Shown: one piece after another, positions 731 to 24,029 of the stretch
Numbering within the stretch: position 1 is the stretch's first letter
Layout of the letters: the number at the start of each line of letters is the position of its first letter
Assembly (NCBI RefSeq): GCF_012932565.1
Contig: NZ_JABBYJ010000002.1
Location: forward strand, 124,001 to 188,000
DNA length: 64,000 nt
Direction of reading: 5' to 3'
Source of the DNA: Sneathiella limimaris
Lineage (GTDB): Bacteria; Pseudomonadota; Alphaproteobacteria; Sneathiellales; Sneathiellaceae
Made by a program: the position numbers and the translations under genes
The notes under the pieces: model-generated
What the model saw: the letters and a program-made list of their open reading frames with translations, nothing else
Told to the model about the DNA's origin: nothing
Database searches by the model: none

Positions 731-1909
731 TTAGTCTAGCTTGCCACTAACAGCATTCAAGAAAACCTCTGTGTATTCTGCTGCTGTCAGCTGGATAGGA
801 TTGCCACCCGATGACGGATCTTCAACAGCCATTTTACCAACCAGTTCCGCTTTTTCATCCGAGATATTCAAAGCACTCAAATCATGAGGAATTCCAAGTT
901 CTTTGCGAAGTTCAAGAATCCAGCCGAGGAAGCCATAAAAACTTGCATCAGCCAGGCCGAGATATGCGGCCAATCGGCTTAAGCGATCAGAAACGGCATC
1001 TTTATTTCGAACCAGAACATATGGCATCAGGATCGCATTCAACATTCCATGATGCGCATCATATAATGCCCCCAAAGGATGCGCGAGTGCGTGCATGCCT
1101 CCCAGTCCCCGTTGGAAAGCTGTTGCGCCCATTGTAGACGCTGCCATCATCTGGCTTCTGGCAACAAGATCAGTTCCATCCTTTGTCGCGGCAGGCAAAT
1201 ATTCCTTCACCAATCGGATACCCTCAATCGCTATCCCTTCCGCCATTGGATGGTAGAAAGGCGAGCAGTATGCCTCAAGATTATGTGAAAGAGCATCCAT
1301 GCCCGTGGCAGCCGTAATATGAGGCGGGAGACCTACGGTTAATCCTGGATCAGCAACCACAATGCTTGGTAGCATCTTGGGATGAAAAATAATCTTCTTC
1401 ACATGGTTTGCCATGTCAGTAATTACCGAAGCTCGGCCCACTTCTGATCCGGTTCCTGAGGTTGTTGGTACCGCAACAATCGGCGCGACACCTTCTGGCT
1501 TCACACGTGTCCAATTATCTCCAACATCCTCAAAATCAAATACAGAGCCATCCTGCCCCACCATCAGCGCAACGGCTTTGGCCGCATCCAGACCAGATCC
1601 ACCGCCAAATGCGATAACGCCATCATGCCCACCGTCATGATAGACCTTTACACCTGCATCCACATTTTCACCAACCGGGTTGGGCTTCACCTCACTAAAG
1701 ACCGCACATTTCAACCCTTCCGCTTCGCAAGATGCAACAGCATCCTGAACCATTGGCAATGAAGCCAATCCTGGATCAGTAATCAAGAGAGGGTTAGTCA
1801 TCCCCAGTTCTTTACAAGCGGCCCCGATTTCTTTGGCGCGCCCAGCACCAAATCGAACCGCAGTTGGGTAGTTCCAGTTTCCGGTCAATTGGTTGATCGT
1901 CTCAGACAT
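731..1909 (-). CDS. Iron-containing alcohol dehydrogenase
   Basis: This is a cytosolic NAD(P)-dependent group III alcohol dehydrogenase of normal length (392 aa). The nucleotide-binding GGGSGLD motif lies at residues 102-108. By alignment to the FucO pattern the Fe ligands would be D205 and H209 (in MDALSH), H273 (GGMHALAHP) and H287 (DAHHG), and all four are present. The gene begins 13 bp downstream of the aldehyde dehydrogenase on the same strand, so the pair forms an operon able to interconvert an alcohol, its aldehyde and the acid. A DeoR regulator is divergent. The substrate is unknown. Given the neighbouring amine genes, an amino alcohol or a hydroxyacid semialdehyde is possible, but that is inference. 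Confidence 0.9.
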   Translation of the reverse strand: MSETINQLTGNWNYPTAVRFGAGRAKEIGAACKELGMTNPLLITDPGLASLPMVQDAVASCEAEGLKCAVFSEVKPNPVGENVDAGVKVYHDGGHDGVIAFGGGSGLDAAKAVALMVGQDGSVFDFEDVGDNWTRVKPEGVAPIVAVPTTSGTGSEVGRASVITDMANHVKKIIFHPKMLPSIVVADPGLTVGLPPHITAATGMDALSHNLEAYCSPFYHPMAEGIAIEGIRLVKEYLPAATKDGTDLVARSQMMAASTMGATAFQRGLGGMHALAHPLGALYDAHHGMLNAILMPYVLVRNKDAVSDRLSRLAAYLGLADASFYGFLGWILELRKELGIPHDLSALNISDEKAELVGKMAVEDPSSGGNPIQLTAAEYTEVFLNAVSGKLD

Positions 1910-1922
1910 ATAATTCAGACCC

Positions 1923-3314
1923 TTAAATAGTGTGTCGTAAGTGATAGGATTTTGGACGTGTCAGGCTTTCATAGCCGACGGAAGACAATGTACAACCTCG
2001 ACCAGAATTTTTAACACCAGTCCATGCTAGTGCTGGATCCAGATAATCACAACGGTTCATAAACCAGGTTCCTGTTTCAATCTGATCTCCAATTTCAACG
2101 GCTTTATCTTCATCCATCGTCCAGATTGAAGCTGTCAGACCAAACTCACTGTCATTCATCAACCGGATTGCTTCCTCGTCGGAGGAAACTTTCATGATGC
2201 CAACAACTGGACCGAAGCTTTCTTCTGTCATAATGCGCATGCTGTGATCAACATCGACGACGACCTGAGGCGCAAGATAAGCTGTACCTTCTTTGTCAGC
2301 CGGGAAATTCGCTGGATCAATTAGCGCTTTCGCACCAGCCGCAACAGCGTCCTTTACCTGGCCACGAACAAAATCGGCTGCTTTTGCATTCACACAAGGC
2401 CCAAGAGTAGTCTCAGGATCCAGGGGAGAGCCAAGCTTGTAGTCATTAACTGTCTTCACTACCGCGTCGACAAAATCATCATACACATCTTCATGAACAT
2501 AAATCCGCTCAATCCCACAGCAGGACTGACCAGAATTGAACATGGCACCATCCACAAGATTTTCGGCTGCAAACACAGGATCAATATCTGCGCGGACATA
2601 TGCCGGATCCTTACCGCCAAGCTCAAGACCCACACCGATGAACTGACCAGAGGCAGCCGCCTCGATGGCTGCGCCACCAGGAACAGATCCTGTGAAGGCA
2701 ACAAAATTGACACCGCCAGATTTAATCAAGTCAGCTGCGAAATCATGTGTTGCAACAACCAACTGGAAAAGATCTGCAGGCAGCCCTGCTTCCACAAACG
2801 CATCGCGCATTGTCTCGCCGCAAAGATGCGTCTGAGTTGCATGCTTTAAGATTACAGCATTTCCAGCCATCAACGCGGGTACAATAGAATTTACAGCAGT
2901 CATATAAGGGAAATTCCATGGGGCAATTGTAAAGACAACACCAAGGGCTTCCCGCTTAATATAACGTGTGAAATTCTCTTTTTCTTCGATCTCAACAGGC
3001 GCCAAAGCCTTTGCAGCAATCTCGATCATATATCGAGCCCGCTCTTCAAAACCGCCGACCTCTCCAGCGCCGTAGCGAATTGGACGACCCATCTGCCAAG
3101 CCAGTTCTTCAGAAATTTTGTCTTTTTTGGACACAAACACGTCGACACATTTGGTCAGGATTGCCGCACGTTCCGCCACTGATTTTTGAACCCATTCTTT
3201 TTGAGCAGCCTTCGCCTTCTGGATTAACTCTGGGATCTCATCTGAAGACATATAAGGTCTTTCCAGATACAGGCTCCCATCAACAGGCGTATAACATTTC
3301 AAACTCTCAGGCAT
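1923..3314 (-). CDS. Aldehyde dehydrogenase family protein
   Basis: This NAD(P)-dependent aldehyde dehydrogenase (463 aa) oxidises an aldehyde to the acid in the cytosol. The visible catalytic set is complete: N134 in APWNFP, the FTGSVPGG cofactor loop near residue 208, general base E231 in LELGGKDP, and nucleophile C265 in GQSCCGIER. It is slightly short compared with 480-500 aa members, in the range of succinate-semialdehyde-type enzymes. It is the first gene of a two-gene operon with the Fe-dependent alcohol dehydrogenase. About 245 bp of AT-rich promoter region separate it from the divergent DeoR gene, the likely regulator. Substrate specificity is not readable. Confidence 0.9.
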   Translation of the reverse strand: MPESLKCYTPVDGSLYLERPYMSSDEIPELIQKAKAAQKEWVQKSVAERAAILTKCVDVFVSKKDKISEELAWQMGRPIRYGAGEVGGFEERARYMIEIAAKALAPVEIEEKENFTRYIKREALGVVFTIAPWNFPYMTAVNSIVPALMAGNAVILKHATQTHLCGETMRDAFVEAGLPADLFQLVVATHDFAADLIKSGGVNFVAFTGSVPGGAAIEAAASGQFIGVGLELGGKDPAYVRADIDPVFAAENLVDGAMFNSGQSCCGIERIYVHEDVYDDFVDAVVKTVNDYKLGSPLDPETTLGPCVNAKAADFVRGQVKDAVAAGAKALIDPANFPADKEGTAYLAPQVVVDVDHSMRIMTEESFGPVVGIMKVSSDEEAIRLMNDSEFGLTASIWTMDEDKAVEIGDQIETGTWFMNRCDYLDPALAWTGVKNSGRGCTLSSVGYESLTRPKSYHLRHTI

Positions 3315-3560
3315 ACGTTCAATCCATCCGTTATCTTTGAGAAAAAAGGAGGAGCTGGGGTCACTCCGTTCAATTGCGGTATTTAGTCACTTTCAGGAGC
3401 CTATCTCAACCATTTTTTCAAACAGGTCCATAAGGAATACATAAAACACAACAGCAATCATCAATTTTCCAACAAAATCAGTGTTCCATTTTTGGAATTC
3501 CACATTTACACTTTCAATTCTCTCATCTCATGGTAGATTGGCTTCAGTCGTCCCCGCAAG

Positions 3561-4334
3561 ATGAGTTGTTTTCCAATGATTAAACAGTCAAAACGCCAGT
3601 TAGAAATCATGAAGTTCCTGCAAGCTCGTAAGTCATGCAGTGTGATCGAACTGGCGGAAGCCTTGGATGTTTCTGACGAAACCATTCGGAGGGATATTCG
3701 CCATTTAGCCGCAACAGGAACTGTCGAGAAAATTCATGGCGGTGTAATGCTACCCCATAATTCTCATGAACCACCATTCATGAGCCGACTGCAGGAACAA
3801 AGAGACGAAAAACAACGAATTGCAAGGCGAGCTGCAACCCTGATCAAAGACGGCGATACCGTTCTTATCGATAATGGCAGCACATCCTGCTATGTCGCTA
3901 AAGAGTTGATCAATTACCGGAACCTCACAATTGTCACGAATTCGACCGAGGTCGCTCGGGAGCTTTGTTCTCGCAACAATAATCGGGTTTTTATGGCTGG
4001 TGGCGAAATACGCTCAGATGACAGCGCGGCTTACGGTCCAACGGCAGTTGAATTTGCTCGTCAGTTCATTGTGCAGAAAGCCATTCTATCCATGGGATCA
4101 GTGCAAGCTAAGCAAGGCTATCTAGACTTCGAATTGGCTGAAGCTGAATTCAAACGCGCAATCCTCCCGCAAGCTGGTCAGGTGATTGTCGTTGCTGATC
4201 ACACAAAATACAATCGCCCCGGCACAGTAAAAGTCGCAGATTTCAATCAAGTGGATATCCTGATCTCAGATCAAGCACCTCCGAAGGATCTGGCGGACCA
4301 ATTAAGTTCAACCGAAGTACTGATTGCTGACTGA
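3561..4334 (+). CDS. DeoR/GlpR-family transcriptional regulator
   Basis: This is a DNA-binding repressor of about 257 aa. An N-terminal winged HTH (residues about 10-60) carries the DeoR signature region, with ELAEALDVSDETIRRDI followed by an E(K)IHGG motif. The C-terminal DeoR sensor domain has the sugar-phosphate-isomerase-like D(N)GSTS motif (LIDNGSTSCYVA) and a NSTEVARELCS stretch. Such sensors usually bind phosphorylated sugars. A second ATG at 3576 gives a more usual N-terminus (MIKQSKRQ), and neither start has a convincing Shine-Dalgarno sequence. The gene is divergent from the aldehyde/alcohol dehydrogenase operon, which it probably controls. It ends 4 bp from the convergent amidotransferase gene. 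Confidence 0.9.
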   Translation: MSCFPMIKQSKRQLEIMKFLQARKSCSVIELAEALDVSDETIRRDIRHLAATGTVEKIHGGVMLPHNSHEPPFMSRLQEQRDEKQRIARRAATLIKDGDTVLIDNGSTSCYVAKELINYRNLTIVTNSTEVARELCSRNNNRVFMAGGEIRSDDSAAYGPTAVEFARQFIVQKAILSMGSVQAKQGYLDFELAEAEFKRAILPQAGQVIVVADHTKYNRPGTVKVADFNQVDILISDQAPPKDLADQLSSTEVLIAD

Positions 4335-4338
4335 GTTA

Positions 4339-5199
4339 TCAGTTCAAGCGGGGATAGACTTTAGCTGCTAGCCAGTTTCGAAGTTCGAGATACCGGATAT
4401 CTGTATTCAGGACGTCGTCATCAATCCCCAGCTGCCAGCGAAGATCTGACCGCTTAGGATCTTCGTGCAGAGCCTGCCATTTCCCAATAAAGCCTTCGGC
4501 CTCTTTGATGGAGGCAAAGTTCCCTTGCTCCGTCAATCCTTGCTTCCGCCAACGGCAGAGACTGGCGACTTCATGCAAATCATATTCAGGGTGATATTGT
4601 ACCGCCCAGAAACTTCCGCCTTTATACGTCACATCAACAGCCTGAATACTGGTGAAGGCATTTGCGGCCAATATGGTTGCACCGCTTGGGACATGCGTAA
4701 TCTCATCCTGATGACTGGTAAATCCATCAAAGACATTTGTCTTTCCGGCATACATGGGATGCCCTCGTCCGGCAGGTGTCAGCTCAATCTTTCGAGCGAT
4801 CCCAAACTCACGGCCATTTGGATTTAAAGCACAATATCCACCTGCTGCTGTCACCGCCATTTGCGCTGCCCAGCAGCTTCCGAACATGGGGACCTTTGCC
4901 TCAAAAGCGGCCTGGGCAAAACGGATCTGACGGACAACGCGCGGATCCTGATCATCATGAATAGTCAGGCTGGAACCGGTCCAGACGATCCCGTCATAAC
5001 CGCTCAATGCCTGACCAATAGGTAGCTCACAGTTTTCATCTGCAGGGTACATGACATGTGTTTCGCAATCCGGCTCACACTCAATCAGCCGGGCTGCATA
5101 TAATTCACCAGCGAGCGTACCCCTATGGGCCGCCAGCTCTACACGGTGGTCTGCCGGATATCCATCCAGAACCAAGATTTTCATTTTCCGGCGCGCCAT
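4339..5199 (-). CDS. Class I glutamine amidotransferase-like protein
   Basis: This protein (286 aa) has a class I (triad) glutamine amidotransferase fold. The visible triad is C109 in the nucleophile elbow GSCWAAQ, plus H203 and E205 in QYHPEYD. It has no synthetase domain, so it is either a stand-alone amidase/gamma-glutamyl hydrolase or the glutaminase partner of another enzyme. It is the last gene of a minus-strand run that starts with a glutamine synthetase-like ligase. In putrescine catabolism the same pairing (PuuA ligase and PuuD hydrolase) makes and then cleaves gamma-glutamyl amides, so a gamma-glutamyl hydrolase role is plausible but inferred. A GGGGGTACAGGG ribosome-binding region precedes the ATG. 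Confidence 0.8.
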   Translation of the reverse strand: MARRKMKILVLDGYPADHRVELAAHRGTLAGELYAARLIECEPDCETHVMYPADENCELPIGQALSGYDGIVWTGSSLTIHDDQDPRVVRQIRFAQAAFEAKVPMFGSCWAAQMAVTAAGGYCALNPNGREFGIARKIELTPAGRGHPMYAGKTNVFDGFTSHQDEITHVPSGATILAANAFTSIQAVDVTYKGGSFWAVQYHPEYDLHEVASLCRWRKQGLTEQGNFASIKEAEGFIGKWQALHEDPKRSDLRWQLGIDDDVLNTDIRYLELRNWLAAKVYPRLN

Positions 5200-5241
5200 C
5201 CCTGTACCCCCAAACTAAACAACAAAAAAACTCGCTACTAG

Positions 5242-6096
5242 TTAGCTTGGACGGACATCACCGCCGATCGTGACCCGACGCATTAGACGCTTATATTGAA
5301 CATAGTCGTTCATCGCATAATGCTGTGTGCAACGGTTATCCCACATGGCAATCGATTTATCTTCCCACCGGAAGCGACAAGCGAATTCAGGCTGTGTGGA
5401 GAAGTCGTATAGATACTTCAGAATTGGGGCACTTTCAGCTTCAGTCATGCCTTTGATCCGGATCGTGAACATTGGGTTCACAAAAATACTTTTCCGGCCA
5501 GAGACATCATGCGTACGGATAAGTGGATGCTCGACTTCTTCCTCGACGGCCTCCGAATACTTATACTTAAGCGAATGACGCCCTTCATATTTTTCTGCTG
5601 TTTTCCGAGGATCAAATGCAACTTTCGCAGAATGAATTGCCACAAGACCATCGAGCAATTCTTTCATACCATCTGACAGATGATCATAGGCTTTTTCCAT
5701 ACTAGCCCACATCGTGTCGCCACCAACAGGTGGAGTTTCAATACCGTATAGCATCGTAATCATGCTCGGCTTTTCAAAGAAAGTATTGTCTGTGTGCCAA
5801 CCTGTCCCGAAGGAAGCGCCTTCGCCGGCCGGTTTTAAAACTTCAATCAATTCTGGATGCTTGTTGGAACCTTCAACAATTGGATGCACTTCCGGAGTTC
5901 CAAACCGACGCGCCACATCCAGCTGATTTTCAGGAGACAATTCCTGGTTGCGGAAGAAAATGACTGAATTTTCGACCAACGCGTCATGTACGTCCTGAAA
6001 TTGTTCATCGGAAAGGGGTTTTGAAAAATCAACACCATGGACATGTGCACCTAGCGCGCTAGCCATTGGTTCCACTTCAATCGTTGTATATCCCAT
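5242..6096 (-). CDS. TauD/TfdA-family Fe(II)/2-oxoglutarate dioxygenase
   Basis: This cytosolic non-heme iron dioxygenase (284 aa, the usual TauD length) couples 2-oxoglutarate decarboxylation to substrate hydroxylation. The metal triad is visible: H101 and D103 in GWHTDNTF, and distal H259 in CTQHYAMND. The 2-oxoglutarate-binding arginine lies in the KRLMRRVTI stretch (R270-R274). The C-terminal WDNRCTQHYA pattern is shared by TauD, TfdA and related enzymes. Substrates in the family include taurine, aryloxyacetates, alkyl sulfates and quaternary ammonium compounds. No taurine transporter genes are present here, so calling it TauD would be too specific. It lies 42 bp upstream of the amidotransferase and probably acts in the same pathway. 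Confidence 0.88.
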   Translation of the reverse strand: MGYTTIEVEPMASALGAHVHGVDFSKPLSDEQFQDVHDALVENSVIFFRNQELSPENQLDVARRFGTPEVHPIVEGSNKHPELIEVLKPAGEGASFGTGWHTDNTFFEKPSMITMLYGIETPPVGGDTMWASMEKAYDHLSDGMKELLDGLVAIHSAKVAFDPRKTAEKYEGRHSLKYKYSEAVEEEVEHPLIRTHDVSGRKSIFVNPMFTIRIKGMTEAESAPILKYLYDFSTQPEFACRFRWEDKSIAMWDNRCTQHYAMNDYVQYKRLMRRVTIGGDVRPS

Positions 6097-6224
6097 TGCA
6101 GACCTCTCTGACTAAATTAATTCTTCCGATGGATCATTCCCGGAACTTTCTTATGCTTACTAGGTAGATGAGAAGCTTTAATAACTATAGGTCCAGTTTC
6201 TGATATTAGCTCATACCAGAATAG

Positions 6225-7679
6225 TCATTTTCTCAACAGAGAGGATAAAATTTGAACTCCTTCCTCAATCCGATCTTCTGAAATTGACGAGAAACCAAGC
6301 CTAAAAAACCGCTCATTACCAACTGGTTCGAGGAAATGATTACTCCCCGGCTCGATCACTATACTTTCCTTTAAGGCACGCTCAGCTAACTCATGTGAGT
6401 TTAATTGTGAGTATCCTTCCAACCAGTAACTCGTCCCCCCAAAAGTTGGACGTTCACTCATCTCAGGAAGATACTGCTCCAGACTTCGGGCCATCACTTT
6501 TGACCGTTTTGCGTAAACCCTGTTCAGTTTACGGACATAAGCATCATGAAACCCCAAAGCGAGAAATAGAGAAGTCGTCCGCTGATTGTTGCTGGGAACA
6601 TGGCGCATCATTAACCGCCGCAACGCCCTCATCTCCCTTATTAACTTGGCATCAGCAACCACATACCCCAAGCGCAAACCCGGGAACATAGACTTTGACA
6701 AGCTACCAAGGTATATCACCCGGCCATCAACATCTTCTGCCTTCAAGGCGGAGACGTCTTCCCCCAGATAATTCATCTCACACTCAAAATCATCCTCAAT
6801 AATGATTTTGTCTTCCCGTGACGCAAGATCCATAAAGGCTCGTCGTCGCTCCATGCTCATACTCACCGTTGTCGGCGCATGGTGAGAGGGTGTTAAAAAG
6901 ATGTAGTCAGACTGATAGGCGGCCTCCCCAAGGATCGCTCCTTGATCATCCAAAGTCGTGGGATAGAGATTGCCCCCATTTATTTGAAAGATATTCCTCG
7001 CATCTGGATATCCAGGTTCTTCAATAGCGACGTTAGCGCCCCCGCCCATCAGCAAGGCTGAGATCAGATATAGGCCGTTCTGGGCTCCGGCAGTAATCAA
7101 GATCTCATCATCTTTTGCAAATATCCCGCGCTTTGGTAAAAGCTTGGTTTTGATCTCGCTAACCAGTTGGGGATCATCTTCAGAAATCGCATCACTAGAC
7201 CAGTTCCGCATGGAAAGCTCGCTCATCGCCTGACGTGAACATTCTCTCCATTGCGCTAGCGGAAAAAGGGCTGGATCTGGTTGCCCGTAAACAAAAGGAT
7301 AGCGATATGATTGCCAGTTTAATGGCTTGGTTATATTCCGCTGTTCACTTGGCCTTAAATAAAATCGACTGGCCCAGTCAAGATTGGTTTTCGGTTTCTC
7401 ACTGTCCGGCTTGAGAGGTGCGCTTGCTGTGATCAAAGGCAATTCGGGGCTTACTCGAAACCCAGAACGATTGGCAGAGACGATAAATCCATCTTCCACC
7501 AGTTTCTCATAGACCAAAACGACAGTCGTTCTGGAGATTTGATGTTTCTTTGCAAGGGATCGTGTGGAGGGCAACAAAGCACCAGCGCGGAGTTGCCCAC
7601 CCAAAATGGAGGAGACAATGGCAGTTCGCAGTTGCTCTTGGATACTGATATTCGAATGCCGATCCAAGTTAAACAGCAT
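6225..7679 (-). CDS. MocR-family (GntR-HTH/aminotransferase) regulator
   Basis: This is a chimeric transcription factor (484 aa). A GntR winged HTH (residues about 10-77, with LLPSTRSLAKKHQISRTT) is joined by a linker to a fold-type I aminotransferase-like domain. The PLP-binding lysine is K329 in YLGSLSKSMFPGLRLGYV, and the EDDFECE motif near residue 296 would contact the PLP pyridine nitrogen. MocR proteins such as GabR and PdxR sense PLP or an amine/amino acid through an aldimine. Its position between the glutamine synthetase-like ligase and the dioxygenase suggests that it controls this cluster in response to an amine or amino acid. A GGGGCAGGG ribosome-binding site precedes the ATG. Confidence 0.9.
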   Translation of the reverse strand: MLFNLDRHSNISIQEQLRTAIVSSILGGQLRAGALLPSTRSLAKKHQISRTTVVLVYEKLVEDGFIVSANRSGFRVSPELPLITASAPLKPDSEKPKTNLDWASRFYLRPSEQRNITKPLNWQSYRYPFVYGQPDPALFPLAQWRECSRQAMSELSMRNWSSDAISEDDPQLVSEIKTKLLPKRGIFAKDDEILITAGAQNGLYLISALLMGGGANVAIEEPGYPDARNIFQINGGNLYPTTLDDQGAILGEAAYQSDYIFLTPSHHAPTTVSMSMERRRAFMDLASREDKIIIEDDFECEMNYLGEDVSALKAEDVDGRVIYLGSLSKSMFPGLRLGYVVADAKLIREMRALRRLMMRHVPSNNQRTTSLFLALGFHDAYVRKLNRVYAKRSKVMARSLEQYLPEMSERPTFGGTSYWLEGYSQLNSHELAERALKESIVIEPGSNHFLEPVGNERFFRLGFSSISEDRIEEGVQILSSLLRK

Positions 7680-7714
7680 GCACTACCCTGCCCCAGTTCC
7701 AGATATTTTTAAAA

Positions 7715-9082
7715 TCAGATAATCTCGAAATACCGCTGTAGCTCCCAATCGGTAATTGCTTTTCGAAATTCCCGCTCTTCCCAATCACGAGTGATGGCGT
7801 AATGATCAACAAATTCATCGCCGAACAGCTCTCTTGCCGCCGCAGAATTTTTGAGCCGCTCAGCCGCTTCGCCCAAAGTTCTTGGCAAGGCAAGCTCTTC
7901 TGGGAATTCCTTATCATAGGCACTGCCCACAATACCTTCTGTCGGCTCAATCTTATTTTCAATTCCCCAAAGGCCAGATCCCAAAGCAGCTGCTACAGCT
8001 AGATAAGGGTTCATATCCGCTGCAGCTATCCGATACTCAACGCGCTGGGATTTTTCATTACCTGGAATAGCGCGCAAGGCACAAGTCCGGTTTTCAACAC
8101 CCCAACTTGCTTCTGTTGGTGCCCAAAAACCTGGAATGAGACGGGTGTAACTATTAATCGTTGGCGAAACCATAGCCAGAAGTTCAGGCATAAGTTTTTG
8201 TTGGCCACCAATGAAATGGCGCATGGCATCGCTCATGTTTTCTGGCTTACCTGCTTCGTAAAACGCACTGGAGCCATCTTCCTTTTGCAGGGACATATGA
8301 ATATGACCACTTTGCCCTGGATAATCCGGGGACCACTTGGCCATAAAGGTCGCCATCAATTCATTCTTTTGCGCCAGAATTTTGGTGAAAGTCTTAAAAA
8401 GTGCGCCTTTGTCAGCAGCTGCCAAAGCTTCATCATAGCCAATTGCTGCTTCCAGGACTCCAGGACCTGTTTCTGTGTGCAGACCTTCCAGTGGCATATC
8501 CATTATCAGGCAAAGTTCCAGAAGCTGCTCATAAAATTCTGACTCTGTTGAAGCCCGGAGCATGGAATAGCCAAAGAAACCAGGCGTGAAATTTTCAAGA
8601 TCCTTGTAGTTCTTTTCACGAACAGATTTCGGTGTTTCATTGAATAGGAAAAATTCAAACTCACAGGCTGCCGTTGCCGCAAAACCCATATCATTGGCTT
8701 TCGCAATCATCCGCTTCAATGTTCCCCGTGGGCAAACTTTCTCTGCACGATCTCCAAATTCCAAAAGGAACAGAAGCATATTATCTTCCATCGGAATTTC
8801 GCGGCAGCTATCGATGACGACTTTTACTGTGGCGTCCGGATAACCGGTTTTCCAACCTGTGTAGCTTTCCCTGTCATAAAGCTGATCTTCTACATCCCAG
8901 CCTAGAACTACGTCACAAAATCCGAACCCTTTTTCAAGAATGCTATAAAATTTGGATTTGCTGAGATATTTGCCGCGCATAACGCCGTCAACATCAAACA
9001 CGCCAACTTTTACGTATTCAAGCCCTCGTTCCTCAACGATAGCTTTTGCGTCTTCGATTGTTCTTACGTCTCTGGGTTCCAT
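7715..9082 (-). CDS. Glutamine synthetase-family ligase (gamma-glutamylamide synthetase-like)
   Basis: This ATP-dependent ligase of the glutamine synthetase superfamily (455 aa) joins glutamate to ammonia or an amine. Conserved elements are the beta-grasp start VKVGVFDVDGVMRGKYL, the metal site ACEFEFFLFNE, GPGVLEAAI, the ATP-site motif GQSGHIHMSL, NSYTRLIPG and RVEYRIAAADMNPYLA. The N-terminal wording and the lack of an adenylylation-site NLYDLPPEE motif match PuuA or gamma-glutamylpolyamine-type paralogues rather than housekeeping GlnA. It heads a minus-strand run with MocR, a dioxygenase and an amidotransferase, which supports an amine-catabolic role. Whether the substrate is putrescine, ethanolamine, methylamine or another amine is open. 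Confidence 0.85.
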   Translation of the reverse strand: MEPRDVRTIEDAKAIVEERGLEYVKVGVFDVDGVMRGKYLSKSKFYSILEKGFGFCDVVLGWDVEDQLYDRESYTGWKTGYPDATVKVVIDSCREIPMEDNMLLFLLEFGDRAEKVCPRGTLKRMIAKANDMGFAATAACEFEFFLFNETPKSVREKNYKDLENFTPGFFGYSMLRASTESEFYEQLLELCLIMDMPLEGLHTETGPGVLEAAIGYDEALAAADKGALFKTFTKILAQKNELMATFMAKWSPDYPGQSGHIHMSLQKEDGSSAFYEAGKPENMSDAMRHFIGGQQKLMPELLAMVSPTINSYTRLIPGFWAPTEASWGVENRTCALRAIPGNEKSQRVEYRIAAADMNPYLAVAAALGSGLWGIENKIEPTEGIVGSAYDKEFPEELALPRTLGEAAERLKNSAAARELFGDEFVDHYAITRDWEEREFRKAITDWELQRYFEII

Positions 9083-9238: not shown

Positions 9239-11479
9239 TCACATATCGACGGCACGCGGCAGCTCTTTTGTCAGCTCTTCCTGGTCAGAGACGGCTTTAC
9301 ACTGGACAGGCAGGTTGATGATGACTGTCGTTCCCTGATCCAATTCACTTTCAATTTCTATTGTTCCCCCGTGAAGTTCCACAAGAGCACGCGTAATTGC
9401 AAGACCAAGACCCGTTCCTTCAAATCGTTTATTAAAGGCGTTTTCAACCTGTCGGAAGGGCTTATAGATTTCTTTGATCTGATCTTCTGGAATGCCAACA
9501 CCATTATCCACAATCCTCAACGTGAACACGTCACCTGCCGCTTCGATAGTGACATCAATCTTGCAATCCAACTTTGTGAATTTGGCTGCATTTGTCATGA
9601 TATTGAGGATAACCTGTCGAAACGATTTGGGGTCGACCTCGACAATCTTTAAGTCTGGGTCAGGAATAATCGTTACCTCAATCGACTTTCCAGGAAAACG
9701 TCCTTCAACAAGCCGCCTGCAAGTCTGTAATTCGCTGACCAATTCAAGAGGTTCAGGATAAATCCGATAAGTACCGGATTCCGTTTTTGCCACATCCAAA
9801 ATTTCGTTAATCAAACTCAGAAGATGCCGTGCACTAACATTGATATCTTCGACATAGTCCACATATTTTTGCGACCCAACAGGCCCGAAAATGTTTTGCT
9901 TGATGATATCCGAAAAGCCAATTATCGCATTCAAGGGTGTTCGAAGTTCATGGCTCATATTTGCAAGAAATTCTGTCTTCGCAATATTCGCCTTTTCCGC
10001 CATATTCTTGGCCCTGCGGAGCTCCAGCTCAACTTCTTTTTGCGCATGTGTATCAAGGATCAGAGCGATCATATTCACCAGGCTTCGCGCAAACCTTCTT
10101 TTTTCTTCTGACCAATCAAAATCAGGGTTCCAGCTGGCAAAATGAACAAAACCCTCAACGACCCCTCTGCGAAACACAGGAACCAAATGCACAGAAACAG
10201 GATCTGATGATCCCAGCCACAATTCTGCAGCTTTTTTCAATAAAGTGTCTTCTAGAATATTACTGGTAGTATATCCGCGGCGTTCCTCAAAAACAGTTTC
10301 CAATTCTGGGAAATCTGTAAGGGGAATTCCAACTCCTTTTTGTTGCGCGTGCGTAGTCTGCCCATAGACAGACATGCAAACCATCTGGCGTGGCTCCTCA
10401 ATCAATTCCCAGACGCCAACCTGATCAACAAGCAAATTCCTTACGGCACTCCCCGCAATTTGCTCAAAAGCCAGGTCTATCGACATTTCATACAAGGACT
10501 CTCCGCGCCCCAACTCAGAAATTGCACGTTCATATTCGAGCAATGTCTTTCGCTCTGCTTTATACTCATTAATTCCTGAATCGAGTTCCCTGGTTAGTTT
10601 GACAGCCTTGTATCCGATAAAAAGGGTCAGCAACAAAAGACCCACCAAGATTAGAGAAACATTCTTAAATACAGAATTGACGAGCTCTTCCGTGTGCAAA
10701 GTTGGTTTCCACTCAAGCCACCCTAGAATGCGACCATCTGATCCATTTATGGGCAGGTACCCGAATTTTTCTTTCGGCTCTTCCACCTCATTTCTAATTG
10801 TAAGTTCAGGAATATTAAACTGCTCAGATAGTTCTATGAGAAATGGCCCCTTGATAGCCTTCGACAGGATCAGCATATTTTGCAACGCTGTCGCTTTGTC
10901 CCCTTCATCATCTGAAAGGTCTACATAATCACTTTGAAGAACGGCACCGACGACCAGATGAACTGCGCCATCCGCGTCTTTCATGAATACACTACCAACG
11001 CTCTCGGAAACTTCAGGCTGAAAACCAGATTTAACAATATTGAGGAAGGAGCTTATTCCCGGAAATCGATCTTCGATTTGCGTATCGACAGCTTCACCAT
11101 CCTCGGCAGCATAAGTTGTCTTTCCATCGCGATCGACGACATAACTACCGGACAATTCATGATAGTCTGTTAAATAAACACCAGTGTTATCATCTGCCCA
11201 GCTCTTATTTGGTTTTAAGACCAAATTAATGACTGCAGCGTCCCAGTAAGTGTGATCAAACACGATATCCCTGAGATGGTTTTCCTGATTTTTCAGCAAC
11301 GCGCTGACCAAATCGATAGAGGTATCTATCTCGACCCTATCCTGAGTTTCGGCACTCTTAACAATTGCGTAGACAAGAACAGAGCACGCCAAAATTACAA
11401 ATAGGGATACTGGGAAAACAAGTTCTCTAATTCTATTTTTTAGGCGGGATTGAGCAGTAATTAGATAATTTTCAAGCAT
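9239..11479 (-). CDS. CHASE4-GAF sensor histidine kinase, PleC/DivJ-like core
   Basis: This is an inner-membrane sensor kinase (746 aa). TM1 (about residues 20-40) and TM2 (about 274-294) enclose a periplasmic CHASE4-type sensor, recognisable by IVFDHTYWDAAV. A GAF-like domain follows (about 330-480). The HisKA domain has phosphoacceptor H510 in FLANMSHELRTPLNAIIGFS, followed by FGPVG..YVDYVEDI..S..HLLSLINEILD, the pattern typical of the alphaproteobacterial PleC/DivJ class. The HATPase_c domain carries DNGVGIPEDQI and GTGLGLAI. There is no receiver domain and no response regulator gene next to it, so its partner is encoded elsewhere. The start has only a weak ribosome-binding site. Confidence 0.9.
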   Translation of the reverse strand: MLENYLITAQSRLKNRIRELVFPVSLFVILACSVLVYAIVKSAETQDRVEIDTSIDLVSALLKNQENHLRDIVFDHTYWDAAVINLVLKPNKSWADDNTGVYLTDYHELSGSYVVDRDGKTTYAAEDGEAVDTQIEDRFPGISSFLNIVKSGFQPEVSESVGSVFMKDADGAVHLVVGAVLQSDYVDLSDDEGDKATALQNMLILSKAIKGPFLIELSEQFNIPELTIRNEVEEPKEKFGYLPINGSDGRILGWLEWKPTLHTEELVNSVFKNVSLILVGLLLLTLFIGYKAVKLTRELDSGINEYKAERKTLLEYERAISELGRGESLYEMSIDLAFEQIAGSAVRNLLVDQVGVWELIEEPRQMVCMSVYGQTTHAQQKGVGIPLTDFPELETVFEERRGYTTSNILEDTLLKKAAELWLGSSDPVSVHLVPVFRRGVVEGFVHFASWNPDFDWSEEKRRFARSLVNMIALILDTHAQKEVELELRRAKNMAEKANIAKTEFLANMSHELRTPLNAIIGFSDIIKQNIFGPVGSQKYVDYVEDINVSARHLLSLINEILDVAKTESGTYRIYPEPLELVSELQTCRRLVEGRFPGKSIEVTIIPDPDLKIVEVDPKSFRQVILNIMTNAAKFTKLDCKIDVTIEAAGDVFTLRIVDNGVGIPEDQIKEIYKPFRQVENAFNKRFEGTGLGLAITRALVELHGGTIEIESELDQGTTVIINLPVQCKAVSDQEELTKELPRAVDM

Positions 11480-14829: not shown

Positions 14830-15798
14830 ATGTCTGCAAAGCCTACAATCCTCGTCACCCGCCAATTTCCCAAAGCCGTCATGCAACGTCTCCGGGAAAA
14901 TTACACACTTATTGATAATCCAGACGATCATGACCTCAGCCCTGATGAGCTGATCAGCAATGCAACAAAAGCCGAAGCGATTCTATGCGATCCAACTAAC
15001 CACTTCTCTAAGGCTGTGATTGACCAATTACCAAGTAATATTGGCCTTATAACCACCTTTTCAGTCGGTTACGACCATATTGACGCCGCCGCTGCAAACG
15101 AGAAAGGTATTAAACTCGGTAATACACCCGACGTTTTGACGGATGCCACTGCGGATATCGCTCTTTTGTGCATGTTGGGGGCATCCCGTCTTGCCTACAA
15201 GGCAGCGCAAGCCTTGAGAGGTGGAAAATGGGGCCGCTGGTCTTCGACTGATTTCCTCGGATTTCATATGTCCGGTAAAAAACTAGCCATTATTGGAATG
15301 GGTCGAATTGGTCAGGCTGTTGCACGTCGGGCCATCGGGTTTGATATGCAGATCCATTATCATAACAGACGCCCTGTGATGGCAGGTGGCTTGGAAGAAG
15401 CTATCTATCATACGGAACTCGAAAGCCTTCTTCCCAATGCGAGCTATCTCTCACTAAATTGCCCACTCACTCCTCAAACCCATCACCTGATTAATGAGAA
15501 CACGATCAAACTGCTCCCGGAAAACGCAGTGATCGTCAATACGGCTCGGGGCGCTGTGATTGATGATAATGCTCTCATTCCAGCTTTGCAGTCAGGTCGA
15601 GTAGCAGCCGCAGGCCTTGATGTGTTTGAGAATGAGCCCAATTTTGACAAGCGTTATTTGGATCTGGAGAATGTGTTTCTCCTACCTCATATCGGGAGCG
15701 CCACATATGAAACCCGCGATGCAATGGGCTTCAAATGCTGCGACAACCTTGATGCCTATTTTGCCGGTGAGGATATCCCAAACCCGATAACCGCCTAA
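14830..15798 (+). CDS. D-2-hydroxyacid dehydrogenase (glyoxylate/hydroxypyruvate reductase type)
   Basis: This is an NAD(P)-dependent D-isomer-specific 2-hydroxyacid dehydrogenase (322 aa). The Rossmann motif is GMGRIGQAVARRA, and the NRRP sequence after the second strand suggests NADPH preference. The catalytic residues are present: Arg in NTARGAVIDD, Glu in DVFENEP, and His in LLPHIGSATYETR. The family reduces glyoxylate, hydroxypyruvate or other 2-oxoacids. It overlaps the convergent sulfatase gene by 4 bp and probably forms an operon with the hydrolase upstream. The exact substrate is open. Confidence 0.9.
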   Translation: MSAKPTILVTRQFPKAVMQRLRENYTLIDNPDDHDLSPDELISNATKAEAILCDPTNHFSKAVIDQLPSNIGLITTFSVGYDHIDAAAANEKGIKLGNTPDVLTDATADIALLCMLGASRLAYKAAQALRGGKWGRWSSTDFLGFHMSGKKLAIIGMGRIGQAVARRAIGFDMQIHYHNRRPVMAGGLEEAIYHTELESLLPNASYLSLNCPLTPQTHHLINENTIKLLPENAVIVNTARGAVIDDNALIPALQSGRVAAAGLDVFENEPNFDKRYLDLENVFLLPHIGSATYETRDAMGFKCCDNLDAYFAGEDIPNPITA

Positions 15799-17324
15799 TC
15801 GCCATACAGCATCTGCCCATCGTCGGAGACTACATACCGATCCAGCGCGCCAAACTCATTTTTCATGCGCCAGGACAAAAGCTTTTGCGCGTAATCCAGA
15901 ACGACGGCTTGATAATCTGGCTCTTCCGCCAGATTTCGCGTCTCATCCGGATCATTCACAAGATCAAAAAGCAAGGGCGGCAGGCTGGCAAAATGAACGT
16001 ATTTAAAATTCTGGTCTCTATAGACCAACAAATTGCACTCATCATGATCAAGCCCCAACGCAGTTTCTGGATCACCATGCTCGATATCACGAAAATCATA
16101 TAGCCAATGAACTGCATCGCGCCAATTCTCGGGTTTATCTCCCCGCATTAATGGGAGTAGAGAAATCCCATCACATTGTGCTGGCGGCTTAGCGCCAAGA
16201 CACTCAAGAATTGTCGGCATAATATCAATGGACTCAGAGAACTCTTCAATCTCGGACGGGTCAATATTCAAAGATTTAGGAGCCTTAACAATCAATGGAA
16301 TATGAAAGCTCTGATCGTAGAAACCCAGCTTTCCAAACAGGTGGTGATCTCCCAACTGCTCCCCATGATCGGCGGTTACCACAATAAGGGTATTATCCAA
16401 CTCACCCGTTTTTTCCAACATATCCAGCAAACGACCGACGTTACTATCCACTTCACTCACCAAGGCTGAATAAGTAGCACGAATTTGGCGCACTTCAGCC
16501 TCTGTCAGGTCTTTGGTGAGACCCTCTTCAGACATCATAAAGGTCGATTGTTTGATAGTATCCATGGAATACTGAAGAAATGGGTGGCTCTCCGATATTG
16601 TTGTCACATCCCCAAAATGCTTCGGTTCCGCCATATCATCTGGATCATATTTGTCGTGATATTCAGGCGGCGCAATAAACGGGGGGTGCGGCCGAAGGTA
16701 ACTGACATGACAAAAGAAAGGATCCCCAAACTGAGCCTGTAAGAACTCAAGAGCCCGGTTCGTCAACCAAGCGGTCTCACTATCAGCCGCCTTGAAGCGA
16801 GCCGGAGCATAGGACAAATGGCGATCTTCAGGTAGTTCAAAATCTGGGTCTGGATGATAAATATCATAGCCCGCTTTTGGAATATCATATCCCTTGGACT
16901 TCAGATCCGTAAGCCAAGCTTTACTCTGTTCATTGAGGCGTGCACCAACAAAATACCCCTCCATCACGCCTTCATATGTCGCCAGATCAGGATCGCCCCG
17001 ATCCTTATACCTGGGATCCGCCGTTATATCTGTATATCCAAACAAGGTGGGTTCATATCCTTGCTTTCGTGCTTCTTTTGCCAGATTTGTCAGGTTTGCA
17101 TTTAGAGGCGTTCCATTTCTAACAGCCCGGTGATTGCTGGGATACATACCGGTATGGAGTGTCGCCCTTGAAGGACCACAAGGTGCAGAGCAAGTGAAAT
17201 GTTTCTTAAACAAGCTACCTGCCTTCGCCAGCCTATCCAGATTAGGGGTTTCGACTATTTGATTTCCATTTGCCCCAAGCCAGTCGGCTCGCCACTGATC
17301 AATGGTGATAAACAAAACATTCAT
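15795..17324 (-). CDS. Sulfatase / phosphonate monoester hydrolase-family enzyme
   Basis: This alkaline-phosphatase-superfamily hydrolase (509 aa) has the sulfatase signature C49-G-P-S-R, whose cysteine would be oxidised to formylglycine by a maturase. Metal-binding elements are D9 in FITIDQWRAD and the VTADHGEQLGDH motif. No signal peptide is seen, so it is probably cytoplasmic. The CSAPCGPSRATLHTG context resembles phosphonate/phosphate monoester hydrolases and some arylsulfatases, so sulfate-ester specificity is not certain. It starts only 22 bp after pqiC on the same strand with a modest ribosome-binding site, and may therefore be cotranscribed with the pqi lipid-transport genes. Confidence 0.87.
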   Translation of the reverse strand: MNVLFITIDQWRADWLGANGNQIVETPNLDRLAKAGSLFKKHFTCSAPCGPSRATLHTGMYPSNHRAVRNGTPLNANLTNLAKEARKQGYEPTLFGYTDITADPRYKDRGDPDLATYEGVMEGYFVGARLNEQSKAWLTDLKSKGYDIPKAGYDIYHPDPDFELPEDRHLSYAPARFKAADSETAWLTNRALEFLQAQFGDPFFCHVSYLRPHPPFIAPPEYHDKYDPDDMAEPKHFGDVTTISESHPFLQYSMDTIKQSTFMMSEEGLTKDLTEAEVRQIRATYSALVSEVDSNVGRLLDMLEKTGELDNTLIVVTADHGEQLGDHHLFGKLGFYDQSFHIPLIVKAPKSLNIDPSEIEEFSESIDIMPTILECLGAKPPAQCDGISLLPLMRGDKPENWRDAVHWLYDFRDIEHGDPETALGLDHDECNLLVYRDQNFKYVHFASLPPLLFDLVNDPDETRNLAEEPDYQAVVLDYAQKLLSWRMKNEFGALDRYVVSDDGQMLYGD

Positions 17325-21225: not shown

Positions 21226-22134
21226 ATGCCTACGGCCACCCTGACACATCTTCGCAAACTCGAAGCAGAGAGCATTCACATCTTCCGTGAAGTCGCTTCC
21301 GAATTTGAAAAGCCAGTGATGCTATATTCCATTGGTAAGGACAGTTCTGTTCTTCTGCATTTGGCGCGCAAAGCATTTTATCCATCACCCATACCTTTTC
21401 CCTTGTTGCACGTAGATACCACTTGGAAATTTCGGGAAATGATCGAATTTCGGGACCGTATGGCCAAAGAGTATGATTTTGATCTGCTTGTTCATATCAA
21501 TCAGGATGGCGTAAAGCAGAACATAGGCCCCTTTTCTCATGGCTCTGCTCTTCATACAGATATCATGAAGACTGAATCTTTGAAGCAGGCTCTTAATCAT
21601 TATAAATTCGATGCCGCGTTTGGCGGCGCTCGTCGGGATGAGGAAGCATCCCGTGCCAAGGAGAGAATTTTCTCATTTAGAACGGAAACCCATCGATGGG
21701 ATCCGAAAAACCAGCGGCCTGAGCTTTGGAACATATACAATTCTCGTGTTCGCTCAGGTGAGAGCATCAGAGCATTTCCTCTCTCTAACTGGACCGAATT
21801 GGATATATGGCAATATATCTACCTTGAGAAAATTCCTATCGTTCCTCTTTACTTTGCCAAGGAACGTCCAGTCGTCGAACGGGATGGTATGTTAATCATG
21901 GTTGATGATGATCGCATGCCACTGGCGGAGAATGAAACTCCGCAGATGAAGTCCGTTCGCTTCAGAACATTGGGATGTTATCCCCTTACAGGTGCCATTG
22001 AATCTACTGCTTCAACCCTCCCCGAAATTATTCAGGAGATGCTAGTCGCCAGAACTTCCGAAAGACAGGGTCGCCTCATTGATAAGGATCAGTCCGGCTC
22101 AATGGAGAAAAAGAAGCAGGAGGGATATTTCTGA
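21226..22134 (+). CDS. cysD: Sulfate adenylyltransferase subunit 2 (CysD)
   Basis: This is the small, catalytic subunit of ATP sulfurylase (302 aa), which forms adenosine 5'-phosphosulfate from ATP and sulfate together with CysN. The PP-loop of the PAPS reductase/CysD family is visible as [33 protein letters not shown] and the C-terminal [16 protein letters not shown] are characteristic of CysD. Its stop overlaps the cysNC start codon (TGATG arrangement), so translation of the two subunits is coupled. A GAAGAGA ribosome-binding site precedes the ATG. Confidence 0.96.
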
Positions 22135-24029
22135 TGAACGAAATTATACAAGCAGACAAAGATATCGCCGCCTACCTGAAAGCACAGGAAGAAAAAGGCA
22201 TGCTTCGCTTCATCACATGCGGCAGCGTTGATGACGGGAAAAGCACACTGATTGGAAGACTGCTATGGGATTCAAAGCTTCTCTTTGAAGATCAACTCGC
22301 CACTTTGGCCAGTGAAAGTAAACGGGTCGGCACTCAAGGCGGCAATCTTGACTACGCCCTTCTTCTTGATGGATTGCAAGCTGAGCGGGAACAAGGCATT
22401 ACAATTGACGTGGCTTATCGATTTTTCGCAACAGATAAGCGCAAATTCATTGTCGCAGACACACCAGGGCATGAGCAATATACGCGGAACATGGTCACGG
22501 GTGCATCTACGGCTGATCTTGCGGTCATACTTATTGACGCCCGTAAAGGCATTTTAACCCAAACCATGCGTCACAGTTTCCTTGTCTCACTTTTGGGAAT
22601 TCGGAACATTATCCTCGCCGTTAACAAGATGGATCTTGTCGACTTTAAAGAGGAGATATTCCTCCAAATCCAACAAGACTATCTCAGCTTTGCTAAAGAC
22701 CTTGGTTTTGAAACCATCACACCAGTTCCTCTCTCTGCTCTGAACGGTGACAATATCATTAAGAGCAGTGAAAACACGCCTTGGTATGAAGGTCCAAGTC
22801 TGCTTGCACACCTTGAAGGCGTTCAGGTCAATGAAGATCTGGCAAGCAAACCATTTCGGATGCCTGTTCAGTGGGTCAACCGGCCCAATCTGGATTTCCG
22901 CGGATTTTCTGGAACGATTGTCAGCGGAACCATTAAAGTTGGTGATGGTATTGTTGAACCCTCCTCCGGCCAAACCAGTACCGTGAAGGAAATTGTTACT
23001 TTTGATGGCAATCTTGACGAGGCTTTCGCTGGTCAGGCAGTTACGATCACACTCAATGATGAAATCGATATTAGCCGTGGTGATGTCCTTTGCGCGCTTC
23101 AGCACCGCCCAGCCACTGCCGACCAGTTTGAAGCCAAGTTGGTTTGGATGAGTGACGAAGCGCTACTCCCAAGCAGGAACTATATTTTAAAGCTTGGGAC
23201 AACAAGCACATCTGCCAGAGTTTCTAATCTCAAGTACAAAATCAACGTAAATACCCTGGAACATACTGCTGCTAAAACTCTCGAGCTCAATGAAATCGGT
23301 GTATGTAACCTCGCATTAGATAAAAGCATCTCATTTGATCCTTACAACGAGAACCGACAGACAGGTTCTTTTATCTTAATTGATCGCTTTACAAATGCGA
23401 CAGTTGGCGCTGGTGTCATAGATTTTGCACTTCGGCGCGCAGAAAATATCCATTGGCAGTCAGTGGATGTTGATAAGAAAGCCCGCTCTGAACAGAAAGG
23501 TCAGAAATCTGCGATCCTGTGGTTTACAGGTCTCTCCGGTTCCGGCAAATCAACGATCGCAAACCAATTGGAAAAGAAACTTCAGGCGTCTGGTAAACAC
23601 ACATATTTGCTGGATGGAGACAATGTCCGTCATGGTCTTAACAAAGATCTCGGTTTTACTGATGCTGACAGGGTGGAAAATATTCGCCGTGTCGGAGAAA
23701 CCGCGAAGCTCTTTGTCGACGCAGGTCTGATCACACTTGTTTCTTTCATTTCACCATTCAGAAGTGAACGGCAAATGGCTCGAGGTCTTGTTGAAACCGA
23801 TGAGTTTATCGAAATCTTTATTGATACGCCTCTCGAGATTTGTGAAGAACGAGATATCAAGGGTCTTTACGCAAAAGCTAGAGCCGGCGAAATCAAGAAT
23901 TTTACAGGAATTGACTCAGCTTATGAGCGCCCAGAAAATGCAGAGATCATAATTGCAGGTGATCAACTCTCCGTGGAAGAAGCTGCAGACCAGATCTTAG
24001 CGTATCTTAAAGAGAACGGATTTATCTAA
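22134..24029 (+). CDS. cysNC: Bifunctional CysN/CysC: ATP sulfurylase GTPase subunit and APS kinase
   Basis: This fusion protein of 631 aa makes PAPS in two steps together with CysD. The N-terminal CysN GTPase part (about residues 1-440) shows the P-loop GSVDDGKS (30-37), DTPGHEQY (from 109) and NKMD (164-167), followed by EF-Tu-like beta-barrel domains. The C-terminal APS kinase (about 455-631) has P-loop GLSGSGKS (466-473), [10 protein letters not shown] and FISPFRSER. The NodQ-like fusion is common in alphaproteobacteria. No cysH, cysG or sulfite reductase is in the window, so the PAPS could feed either cysteine synthesis or sulfation of a metabolite or polysaccharide. A terminator follows. 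Confidence 0.96.

Follow-up and report, generated by a model that had tools for sequence, protein, structure and literature searches.

In Escherichia coli the Puu pathway for putrescine employs a ligase, an aldehyde dehydrogenase (ALDH) and a hydrolase of glutamine amidotransferase (GATase) fold, which act via gamma-glutamyl intermediates. For ethanolamine, GlnA4 of Streptomyces coelicolor makes gamma-glutamylethanolamide, the subsequent steps being predicted (PMC6529630), and a Phaeobacter operon has been described whose proteins rise on phosphorylethanolamine and whose binding protein binds ethanolamine; the MED193 genes are said there to be near relatives of C. salexigens and A. tumefaciens genes (PMC10132767). 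The boxes of the regulator TauR are direct repeats of CTGGACYTAA, and the listed TauR targets include the dioxygenase TauD in two Ralstonia species (PMC5320631; Suvorova and Rodionov 2016). Here we report on a locus of the alphaproteobacterium Sneathiella limimaris (NCBI RefSeq assembly GCF_012932565.1) that may bring these themes together. The stretch analysed, referred to as the window, comprises 64,000 nucleotides (contig NZ_JABBYJ010000002.1, positions 124,001 to 188,000, forward strand) of a 3.66 Mb host genome (G000; in the following G numbers denote genomes and L numbers loci), and the locus occupies window positions 731-9082. Our preferred reading, to which we give a probability of roughly 0.45, is that it encodes a gamma-glutamyl route for 2-aminoethyl compounds with a taurine-controlled add-on, a TauD-family dioxygenase and a GATase, that acts on gamma-glutamyl-taurine.

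In the core of this scheme a glutamine synthetase (GS)-like ligase would join L-glutamate to ethanolamine, an iron-containing alcohol dehydrogenase (Fe-ADH) and an ALDH would oxidise the gamma-glutamylethanolamide via gamma-glutamyl-aminoacetaldehyde to gamma-glutamylglycine, and the GATase-fold hydrolase would free glutamate and glycine from the latter. In the add-on, a TauR-type MocR regulator would sense taurine and switch on TauD and GATase, taurine would be capped with glutamate by GS or another gamma-glutamyl donor, and TauD would hydroxylate gamma-glutamyl-taurine at the carbon next to the sulfonate; the hydroxylated product would break to sulfite and gamma-glutamyl-aminoacetaldehyde, the aldehyde common to the ethanolamine route, which ALDH and GATase would finish to glycine. 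These parts differ in strength. The core is very probably a gamma-glutamyl ethanolamine route, and MocR, TauD and GATase in all likelihood form a taurine-responsive unit; that TauD is a gamma-glutamyl-taurine dioxygenase, glycine being reached without free aminoacetaldehyde or sulfoacetaldehyde, is a tentative proposal that we hold at somewhat less than even odds. We infer every substrate, the sensed ligand and the action of GS before TauD, and the reading as a whole is based on gene order, co-occurrence, the operator, residue changes and a predicted fold. The features concerned are the following.

7715..9082, minus strand: GS-like gamma-glutamyl ligase (Gln-synt_C), predicted gamma-glutamylethanolamide synthetase, perhaps also acting on taurine
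6225..7679, minus strand: MocR-type regulator (GntR and aminotransferase domains), predicted TauR
6188..6219, minus strand: putative TauR-type operator, direct repeats CTGGTATGAG and CTGGACCTAT whose starts are separated by 23 bp; from their end it is about 90 bp to the start of TauD
5242..6096, minus strand: TauD-family Fe(II)/2-oxoglutarate dioxygenase (TauD Pfam)
4339..5199, minus strand: stand-alone class-I GATase (GATase and Peptidase_C26 Pfam), predicted gamma-glutamyl(glycine) hydrolase
3561..4334, plus strand: DeoR/GlpR-type regulator (HTH_DeoR and DeoRC), predicted to control ALDH and Fe-ADH
1923..3314, minus strand: aldehyde dehydrogenase (Aldedh), predicted gamma-glutamyl-aminoacetaldehyde dehydrogenase
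731..1909, minus strand: iron-containing alcohol dehydrogenase (Fe-ADH), predicted gamma-glutamylethanolamide dehydrogenase

All seven genes had been recognised in a preliminary description made from the DNA letters, which placed GS, MocR, TauD and GATase colinearly beside DeoR, ALDH and Fe-ADH; coordinates, strands (the first four codirectional) and Pfam domains, the expected one above cut-off in each protein, agree with it. It also correctly reported no transporter within 731-9082, and its general gamma-glutamyl logic is supported by the flap of the ligase and the best fold matches of the GATase, both described below.

The ligase reaches none of the NCBIfam cut-offs set for GlnA, type III GS or gamma-glutamylputrescine synthetase. 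Putrescine was set aside as its substrate, the score against the PuuA-type model NF045547 (185.7 bits) being far below the cut-off of 650. Its best solved structural relatives are 11zs and 5dm3, and IpuC of Paenarthrobacter aurescens is 38% identical to it. The flap reads PGFWAP: at the position, assigned by motif, where ammonia-using GS carries Glu327 the window enzyme has Trp, and so does PauA7, the corresponding residue of GlnA4 being Phe (PMC6529630). Relatives encoded on plasmids (41 records matched, 7 opened) have an ALDH (49-61% identical) directly downstream in all seven loci and a Fe-ADH (52-63%) after GS and ALDH in three. Some gamma-glutamyl hydrolase-type gene lies near GS in every one, the subfamilies differing: five contain a class-I GATase match of 24-39%, the other two an annotated gamma-glutamyl-GABA hydrolase family gene or an N-formylglutamate amidohydrolase. 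The copies of Photobacterium and Legionella lytica, 63-64% identical to the window GS, lie in GS-ALDH-FeADH-GATase operons; that of Photobacterium sp. GJ3, whose GS, ALDH and Fe-ADH are 64, 61 and 63% identical to those of the window, stands behind an ethanolamine permease (TIGR00908, 552.8 bits against a cut-off of 381.75), and L. lytica has the same GS-ALDH-FeADH order. The earlier guess at an amino alcohol as substrate is supported. The backbone of the locus matches the ethanolamine gamma-glutamylation of Streptomyces (PMC6529630) and Phaeobacter (PMC10132767), as far as these two papers describe it, so that the new route which the preliminary description had proposed is for this part a known one.

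The window proteins were mapped by tblastn onto 34 fetched stretches of at most 20 kb; these came from 30 genomes, of which 22 belong to the genus. The genus comparison covers 24 genomes. Among the genes named here and below, soxB, HisN, phnS2, PhnU2, PbfA, PhnW, AgcS, Xsc and the ethanolamine permease were confirmed by NCBIfam, and Tpa, Na/Pi symporter, GDPD, DMGDH-like, choline-kinase-like, XRE-cupin, UspA-like and PuuD-like genes were named by eye. The preliminary description had suggested such a comparison of neighbourhoods, in case its four genes never co-occur in relatives; within the genus they do, and the order GS, MocR, TauD, GATase, DeoR (on the opposite strand), ALDH, Fe-ADH is repeated in congeners. 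Orthologs of GS (at least 76% identical, one split) occur in 20 of the 24 genomes, of MocR in 16 (plus a contig-end fragment in G016), of GATase (at least 65%, broken in G008) in 15 and of TauD (at least 77%, one split) in 14. Every TauD genome has the GATase (14/14, counting the broken copy), which ties the dioxygenase to the predicted gamma-glutamyl hydrolase, and 13 of the 14 have GS, the exception, G016, being 56% complete. In G015 a GATase stands without TauD on a contig that ends beside it, and in the 98% complete G013 neither GS, MocR, TauD nor GATase has an ortholog, and no Xsc reaches the cut-off.

ALDH and Fe-ADH were both found in the fetched stretches of 18 of the 20 GS-bearing congeners; in G006, G007 and G019 they lie on a contig other than that of GS. 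The contigs of G002 and G009 stop short of them. DeoR stays beside ALDH and Fe-ADH in congeners with and without TauD-GATase. Since GS-DeoR-ALDH-FeADH persists without MocR, TauD and GATase in G001, G010, G014 and G023, the four-gene unit of the preliminary description is a composite: GS, ALDH and Fe-ADH, with DeoR, are a stable core, and MocR-TauD-GATase is a separable insert. The dehydrogenase pair, earlier taken to be merely adjacent, belongs with the ligase to that core. G020 and G022 keep the core and MocR and lack TauD-GATase, and in G009 (65% complete) the core GS is present and the contig stops at MocR, with a UspA-like gene and an AgcS symporter (TIGR00835) between the two (L074). The full set of GS, MocR, TauD and GATase was seen in Sneathiella alone; outside the genus we found GS, ALDH, Fe-ADH and GATase together, or TauD with GATase.

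Several observations accompany this comparison. A CHASE4-GAF sensor kinase gene (window 9239-11479) adjoins GS and keeps its position in five congeners, across which it is only 36-44% identical, versus 82-89% for the adjoining GS. In G008 (L062:12170-13023 and 15438-16609) GATase and Fe-ADH are each split over two frames in an otherwise complete cluster, through decay or assembly error. In one Sneathiella subgroup (L071:9549-17048, L077:2297-9757 and similar loci) GS is the last gene of a row with sox genes (soxB) and a HisN-type phosphatase; formate-tetrahydrofolate ligase-like and GlxA-type genes lie near the same rows, which links the core to sarcosine and C1 metabolism. The methylated amine that had been considered as a substrate finds indirect support in these sox genes, confined to part of the genus. 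CysD/CysNC-like genes, recognised by eye at window ~21226-24029, lie 12 kb past GS, and a similar pair lies ~6 kb from TauD-GATase in G033 (L084:531-3343), possibly by coincidence.

Two lines of evidence point from the insert to taurine, namely TauR-like direct repeats in the gap between MocR and TauD and an exchange of the insert with Tpa/Xsc genes. In the window this gap of 128 bp contains, on the minus strand at 6188-6219, CTGGTATGAG and CTGGACCTAT at a distance of 23 bp. We scored 17 gaps against CTGGACYTAA (maximum 20) at a fixed spacing of 23 bp; the consensus was taken from PMC5320631 before the gaps were examined, the spacing was derived from the same gaps, and for G004 the stretch was extended into the end of MocR so as to cover its first box. 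MocR-TauD gaps reached 19 (G016), 18 (G004), 17 (L097), 16 (G008, G011, G018) and 14 (G000), and the gaps before Tpa of G020, Tpa of G022 and Xsc of G022 reached 15, 15 and 14, so that repeats at 14-19/20 are present in 7/14 MocR-TauD gaps and in three Tpa/Xsc gaps; among mononucleotide shuffles with the 23-bp spacing, 12/3400 reached 14 and none scored higher. Genome-wide, allowing one mismatch, the operator pattern matched twice in G000, once in G016, three times in G020, twice in G022 and never in G001, G010 or G021, and a reversed control pattern matched twice in the same seven genomes, both times in G020. Neither of two extra matches, G000 C1:748268 and G020 C8:134443, has a recognised taurine gene beside it; a further match lies at G020 C25:170972, and there is one in L121. 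The box letters do not occur in the available text of the S. meliloti TauR paper (PMC4254191). MocR is the sole protein of the seven to pass a listed NCBIfam cut-off, that of the PdxR model; the name PdxR was not adopted, no pyridoxine gene being recognised beside it, and from the TauR-type boxes and the Tpa-like gene beside its orthologs in G020 and G022 we predict a TauR-type regulator.

The exchange is seen in G020 and G022, where the MocR ortholog is divergent to a class-III aminotransferase gene and TauD-GATase is missing. From its resemblance and context we take this aminotransferase to be Tpa; there was no NCBIfam Tpa match, and the best model, PRK07678, falls just below cut-off. Among the 24 genomes the Tpa-like gene (E 1e-130 or better) occurs in these two alone, and so does Xsc over cut-off, with TauR-type boxes before Tpa in both and before Xsc in G022. 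Both Xsc genomes are among the three that have MocR and lack TauD (G009, G020, G022), for which the chance, were the two drawn at random, is 3/276, ~0.01, with relatedness ignored. The Xsc gene of G020 (G020:C10:46000-65999, L185) clusters with GMC-type oxidoreductase and TRAP genes and by eye resembles isethionate use. G020 and G022 retain other TauD-family genes, the nearest, in G022, being 49% identical. The sulfonate named among the earlier guesses at a substrate is in keeping with this evidence.

The GATase is a predicted gamma-glutamyl(glycine) hydrolase. C109, H203 and E205 are invariant in 27 homologs, and the seven best PDB matches of its AlphaFold model (mean pLDDT 94.9) are all Arabidopsis gamma-glutamyl peptidase 1 (TM normalised to query length 0.63-0.67, at 16-18% identity), with GMP synthase domains among the matches that follow. 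Its neighbourhoods were compared in the best 80 of 537 relatives (L096-L175), many of which end at contig breaks; of the seven Sneathiella-type loci, six (L096 and L098-L102) duplicate contigs of G-numbered genomes. TauD lies directly before GATase in 10 of these 80 loci, seven of them Sneathiella-type, and L149 has TauD too. Of the 73 loci outside Sneathiella, 15 have a Fe-ADH (54-71% identical) within 9 kb of GATase, 10 an ALDH of at least 60% identity and 3 a GS of 66-67%. Fifteen of the 80 loci have DMGDH-like genes, and ten have choline-kinase-like genes. A HAD-type gene lies directly before GATase in 50; the HAD copy tested matched no NCBIfam model at 1e-30, and as a side reading HAD-GATase might be a widespread second gamma-glutamyl system.

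TauD itself scores 278.5 bits against the NCBIfam taurine dioxygenase model NF007104 (cut-off 313). We aligned the pocket residues of 12 Sneathiella and 6 distant GATase-linked TauDs (G033, G042, L149, L155, L162, L166) with E. coli TauD. All 18 keep H70, H99, D101, H255, R266 and R270, of which H70 and R270 presumably lie at the sulfonate end, and carry V (A in L166), F, G and A where the E. coli and P. putida enzymes have Y73, D94, N95 and S158. The window TauD accordingly reads Y73V, D94F, N95G and S158A, with metal and 2-oxoglutarate positions kept. In taurine dioxygenase H70 and R270 hydrogen-bond taurine, and D94, N95 and S158 belong to a network around its amine, mutants being slowed (PMC9304159). 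A capped amine would explain the loss of these amine contacts. Among eight unlinked paralogs, chosen by the analyst out of 40 paralog matches in the genus, five lack H70, and the combination of H70 with V/A-F-G-A occurs in 18/18 linked copies, in none of the eight paralogs and in none of three references. These residues speak against the linked TauD being a canonical free-taurine enzyme; they would suit a capped anion but do not prove which one.

Distant TauD-GATase genomes bear on the supposed partnership with a ligase. Five of six have a GS-like gene (33-35% identical). In G033 and G062 (the L162 genome) it opens a GS-ALDH-FeADH operon separate from the TauD-GATase site, with ALDH 63 and 57% and Fe-ADH 56 and 54% identical to those of the window, respectively; in G061 a GS-ALDH pair is ended by a contig break.

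A number of observations weigh against the reading we prefer. In the regulator, MocR scores 350.4 bits against the PdxR model NF052282 (cut-off 320); a looser form of the operator pattern has one match in the window and one in each of 9/100 shuffled windows (mean 0.09); and the subgroup B gaps (G002, G003, G007, G012, G017, G019, G021) score 11-13/20, within chance, although CTGGTA and, with the spacing unchanged, CTGGTACTA or TTGGTACTA can be seen in them by eye. As no TauR-type site was found beside the six TauD-GATase pairs outside Sneathiella, we argue the link to taurine for this genus only. TauABC was sought, and TauA was over cut-off in 0/24 genomes, including those with Tpa/Xsc, which leaves taurine uptake unexplained. 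Seven of the 20 GS-bearing congeners are without a window-type GATase (13 have it), so that their ethanolamine branch needs another hydrolase, and the GATases of the Photobacterium and Legionella operons are only 24-28% identical to that of the window. In the pocket, three of the eight unlinked paralogs also have V73-F94-G95, RdpA likewise lacks the taurine-amine contacts, and H70/R270 would also suit other anions; another TauD-family gene of G000 is closer to E. coli TauD (43% versus 39%), so a free-taurine enzyme may lie elsewhere. Among the distant genomes, G042 (1.7 Mb; L086:6096-7790) has TauD-GATase, but its sole match to GS is partial (34%) and of GlnA type, the GS-like gene of G060 and G063 adjoins by eye a PuuD-like gene, and three of the six pairs (G033, L155, L162) stand with DMGDH-like and XRE-cupin genes.

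Much of the evidence for taurine would hold equally if TauD acted on free taurine as in E. coli, yielding sulfite and aminoacetaldehyde that GS then glutamylates or Fe-ADH reduces to ethanolamine. The operator and the Tpa/Xsc exchange point to taurine generally and not to its capped form, TauR governs TauD in the Ralstonia cases (PMC5320631), and in the TauD tree the linked copies, two taurine dioxygenases and three paralogs form a 23-row group apart from RdpA (94/95, just below the starred level), in which a single origin of the linked TauDs is neither supported nor contradicted. We nevertheless consider this explanation unlikely: none of the 18 linked copies has the taurine-amine contacts that both taurine dioxygenases possess, and the explanation gives no special reason for the TauD-GATase tie in the genus. 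Conversely, the sharing of V73-F94-G95 by unlinked paralogs and the precedent for TauR control of TauD lower our confidence in the capped-taurine reading. Still less probable in our estimation is that TauD-GATase acts on another N-acylated or N-alkylated anion, for example an N-methyltaurine-derived compound, a sulfate ester or a carboxylate, taurine being only a related inducer. The DMGDH-like genes beside the pairs of L155, L162 and G033, the sox genes that adjoin GS in one subgroup of Sneathiella, the score of TauD below the taurine dioxygenase cut-off and a pocket partly common to unlinked paralogs would all agree with it; in Sneathiella, however, it is specifically taurine to which the boxes and the exchange with Tpa/Xsc point.

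The genomic surroundings raise two further explanations. Just left of the window (G000:C2 ~114-123 kb; L094:2237-10599) lies a 2-aminoethylphosphonate (AEP) cluster with phnS2, an ABC ATPase, PhnU2, PbfA, PhnW and a Na/Pi symporter-like gene, and an EamA part at window 27-677 matches TIGR03340 below cut-off. With phnS2, PhnU2, PbfA and PhnW genes so close, TauD might make 1-hydroxy-AEP for PbfA; we regard this as highly improbable and set AEP low as a substrate, because in the stretches read TauD and an adjacent AEP cluster come and go independently, TauD standing without one in G003, G017 and G021 (AEP genes elsewhere were not sought) and the cluster, by eye, without TauD in G014 and G023. 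Nor do we give much credence to a chance assembly of an ethanolamine core with a sulfur-scavenging dioxygenase and an unrelated hydrolase. The persistence of the core without MocR-TauD-GATase in G001, G010, G014 and G023 would be expected of unrelated neighbours, but GS accompanies TauD in 13 of 14 genomes, the incomplete G016 excepted, and both modules are present, each at its own site, in G033 and in G062.

If the gamma-glutamyl-taurine reading is correct, the locus would add a further route of taurine breakdown to Tpa/TauXY-Xsc and the free-taurine TauD, and its dioxygenase would to our knowledge be the first member of the TauD family linked to a gamma-glutamyl carrier. In the sea, taurine and ethanolamine are plentiful sources of nitrogen and carbon, and if both share one gamma-glutamyl route, surveys that count Xsc would miss taurine use in Xsc-less genomes. 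The pocket combination (H70 and R270 with V/A73, F94, G95 and A158), found in 0/8 unlinked paralogs read, makes the idea directly testable. None of the papers listed by our searches of the PMC library, which leaves out most subscription papers, is about a bacterial gamma-glutamyl-taurine dioxygenase, and gamma-glutamyltaurine is named in the accessible text of PMC6529630 only as a natural compound.

How does the locus compare with systems already described? With the Puu pathway it shares a ligase, an ALDH and a GATase-fold hydrolase, and it differs in having a Fe-ADH and no PuuB-type oxidase. The preliminary description had cast the dioxygenase as the substitute for that oxidase; instead, Fe-ADH and ALDH would carry out the oxidising steps, TauD being a separable addition that a TauR-type operator precedes. 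The isopropylamine (Ipu) route likewise has a GS-like ligase, IpuC, that caps an amine; its hydroxylase, a P450-type enzyme, is not among the window genes. E. coli TauD and the window TauD (~39% identical) have family, metal and 2-oxoglutarate positions, H70 and R270 in common, whereas Y73, D94, N95 and S158 are all altered in the latter, whose partner is a predicted gamma-glutamyl hydrolase. Described TauR regulons resemble the insert in the MocR regulator beside its target, the CTGGACYTAA direct repeats and TauD as a target in two Ralstonia species; the alphaproteobacterial ones, however, hold transporters, tauXY, tpa, xsc, pta/ackA and exporters, and neither 'glutamine amidotransferase' nor 'glutamine synthetase' occurs in the main text of that study (PMC5320631). 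The closest counterpart is the gamma-glutamyl ethanolamine pathway of the S. coelicolor GlnA4 cluster (PMC6529630) and of Phaeobacter sp. MED193 (PMC10132767), which, as far as described there, shares with the locus a ligase, an alcohol dehydrogenase, an ALDH and a gamma-glutamylglycine hydrolase, together with an aromatic residue for flap Glu327 (Phe in GlnA4, Trp in the window GS and PauA7). In contrast to that pathway the locus has no EtoVWX TRAP transporter or permease at 731-9082, although such a transporter is common and not defining, the S. coelicolor cluster being also without one (PMC6529630). Furthermore, it has DeoR in place of RpiR or EpuRI, its GATase is absent from 7/20 GS-bearing congeners, and it adds a TauR-type MocR and TauD. 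TauR control of TauD is already known; the new part is a TauD with a predicted gamma-glutamyl hydrolase inside an ethanolamine gamma-glutamyl cluster.

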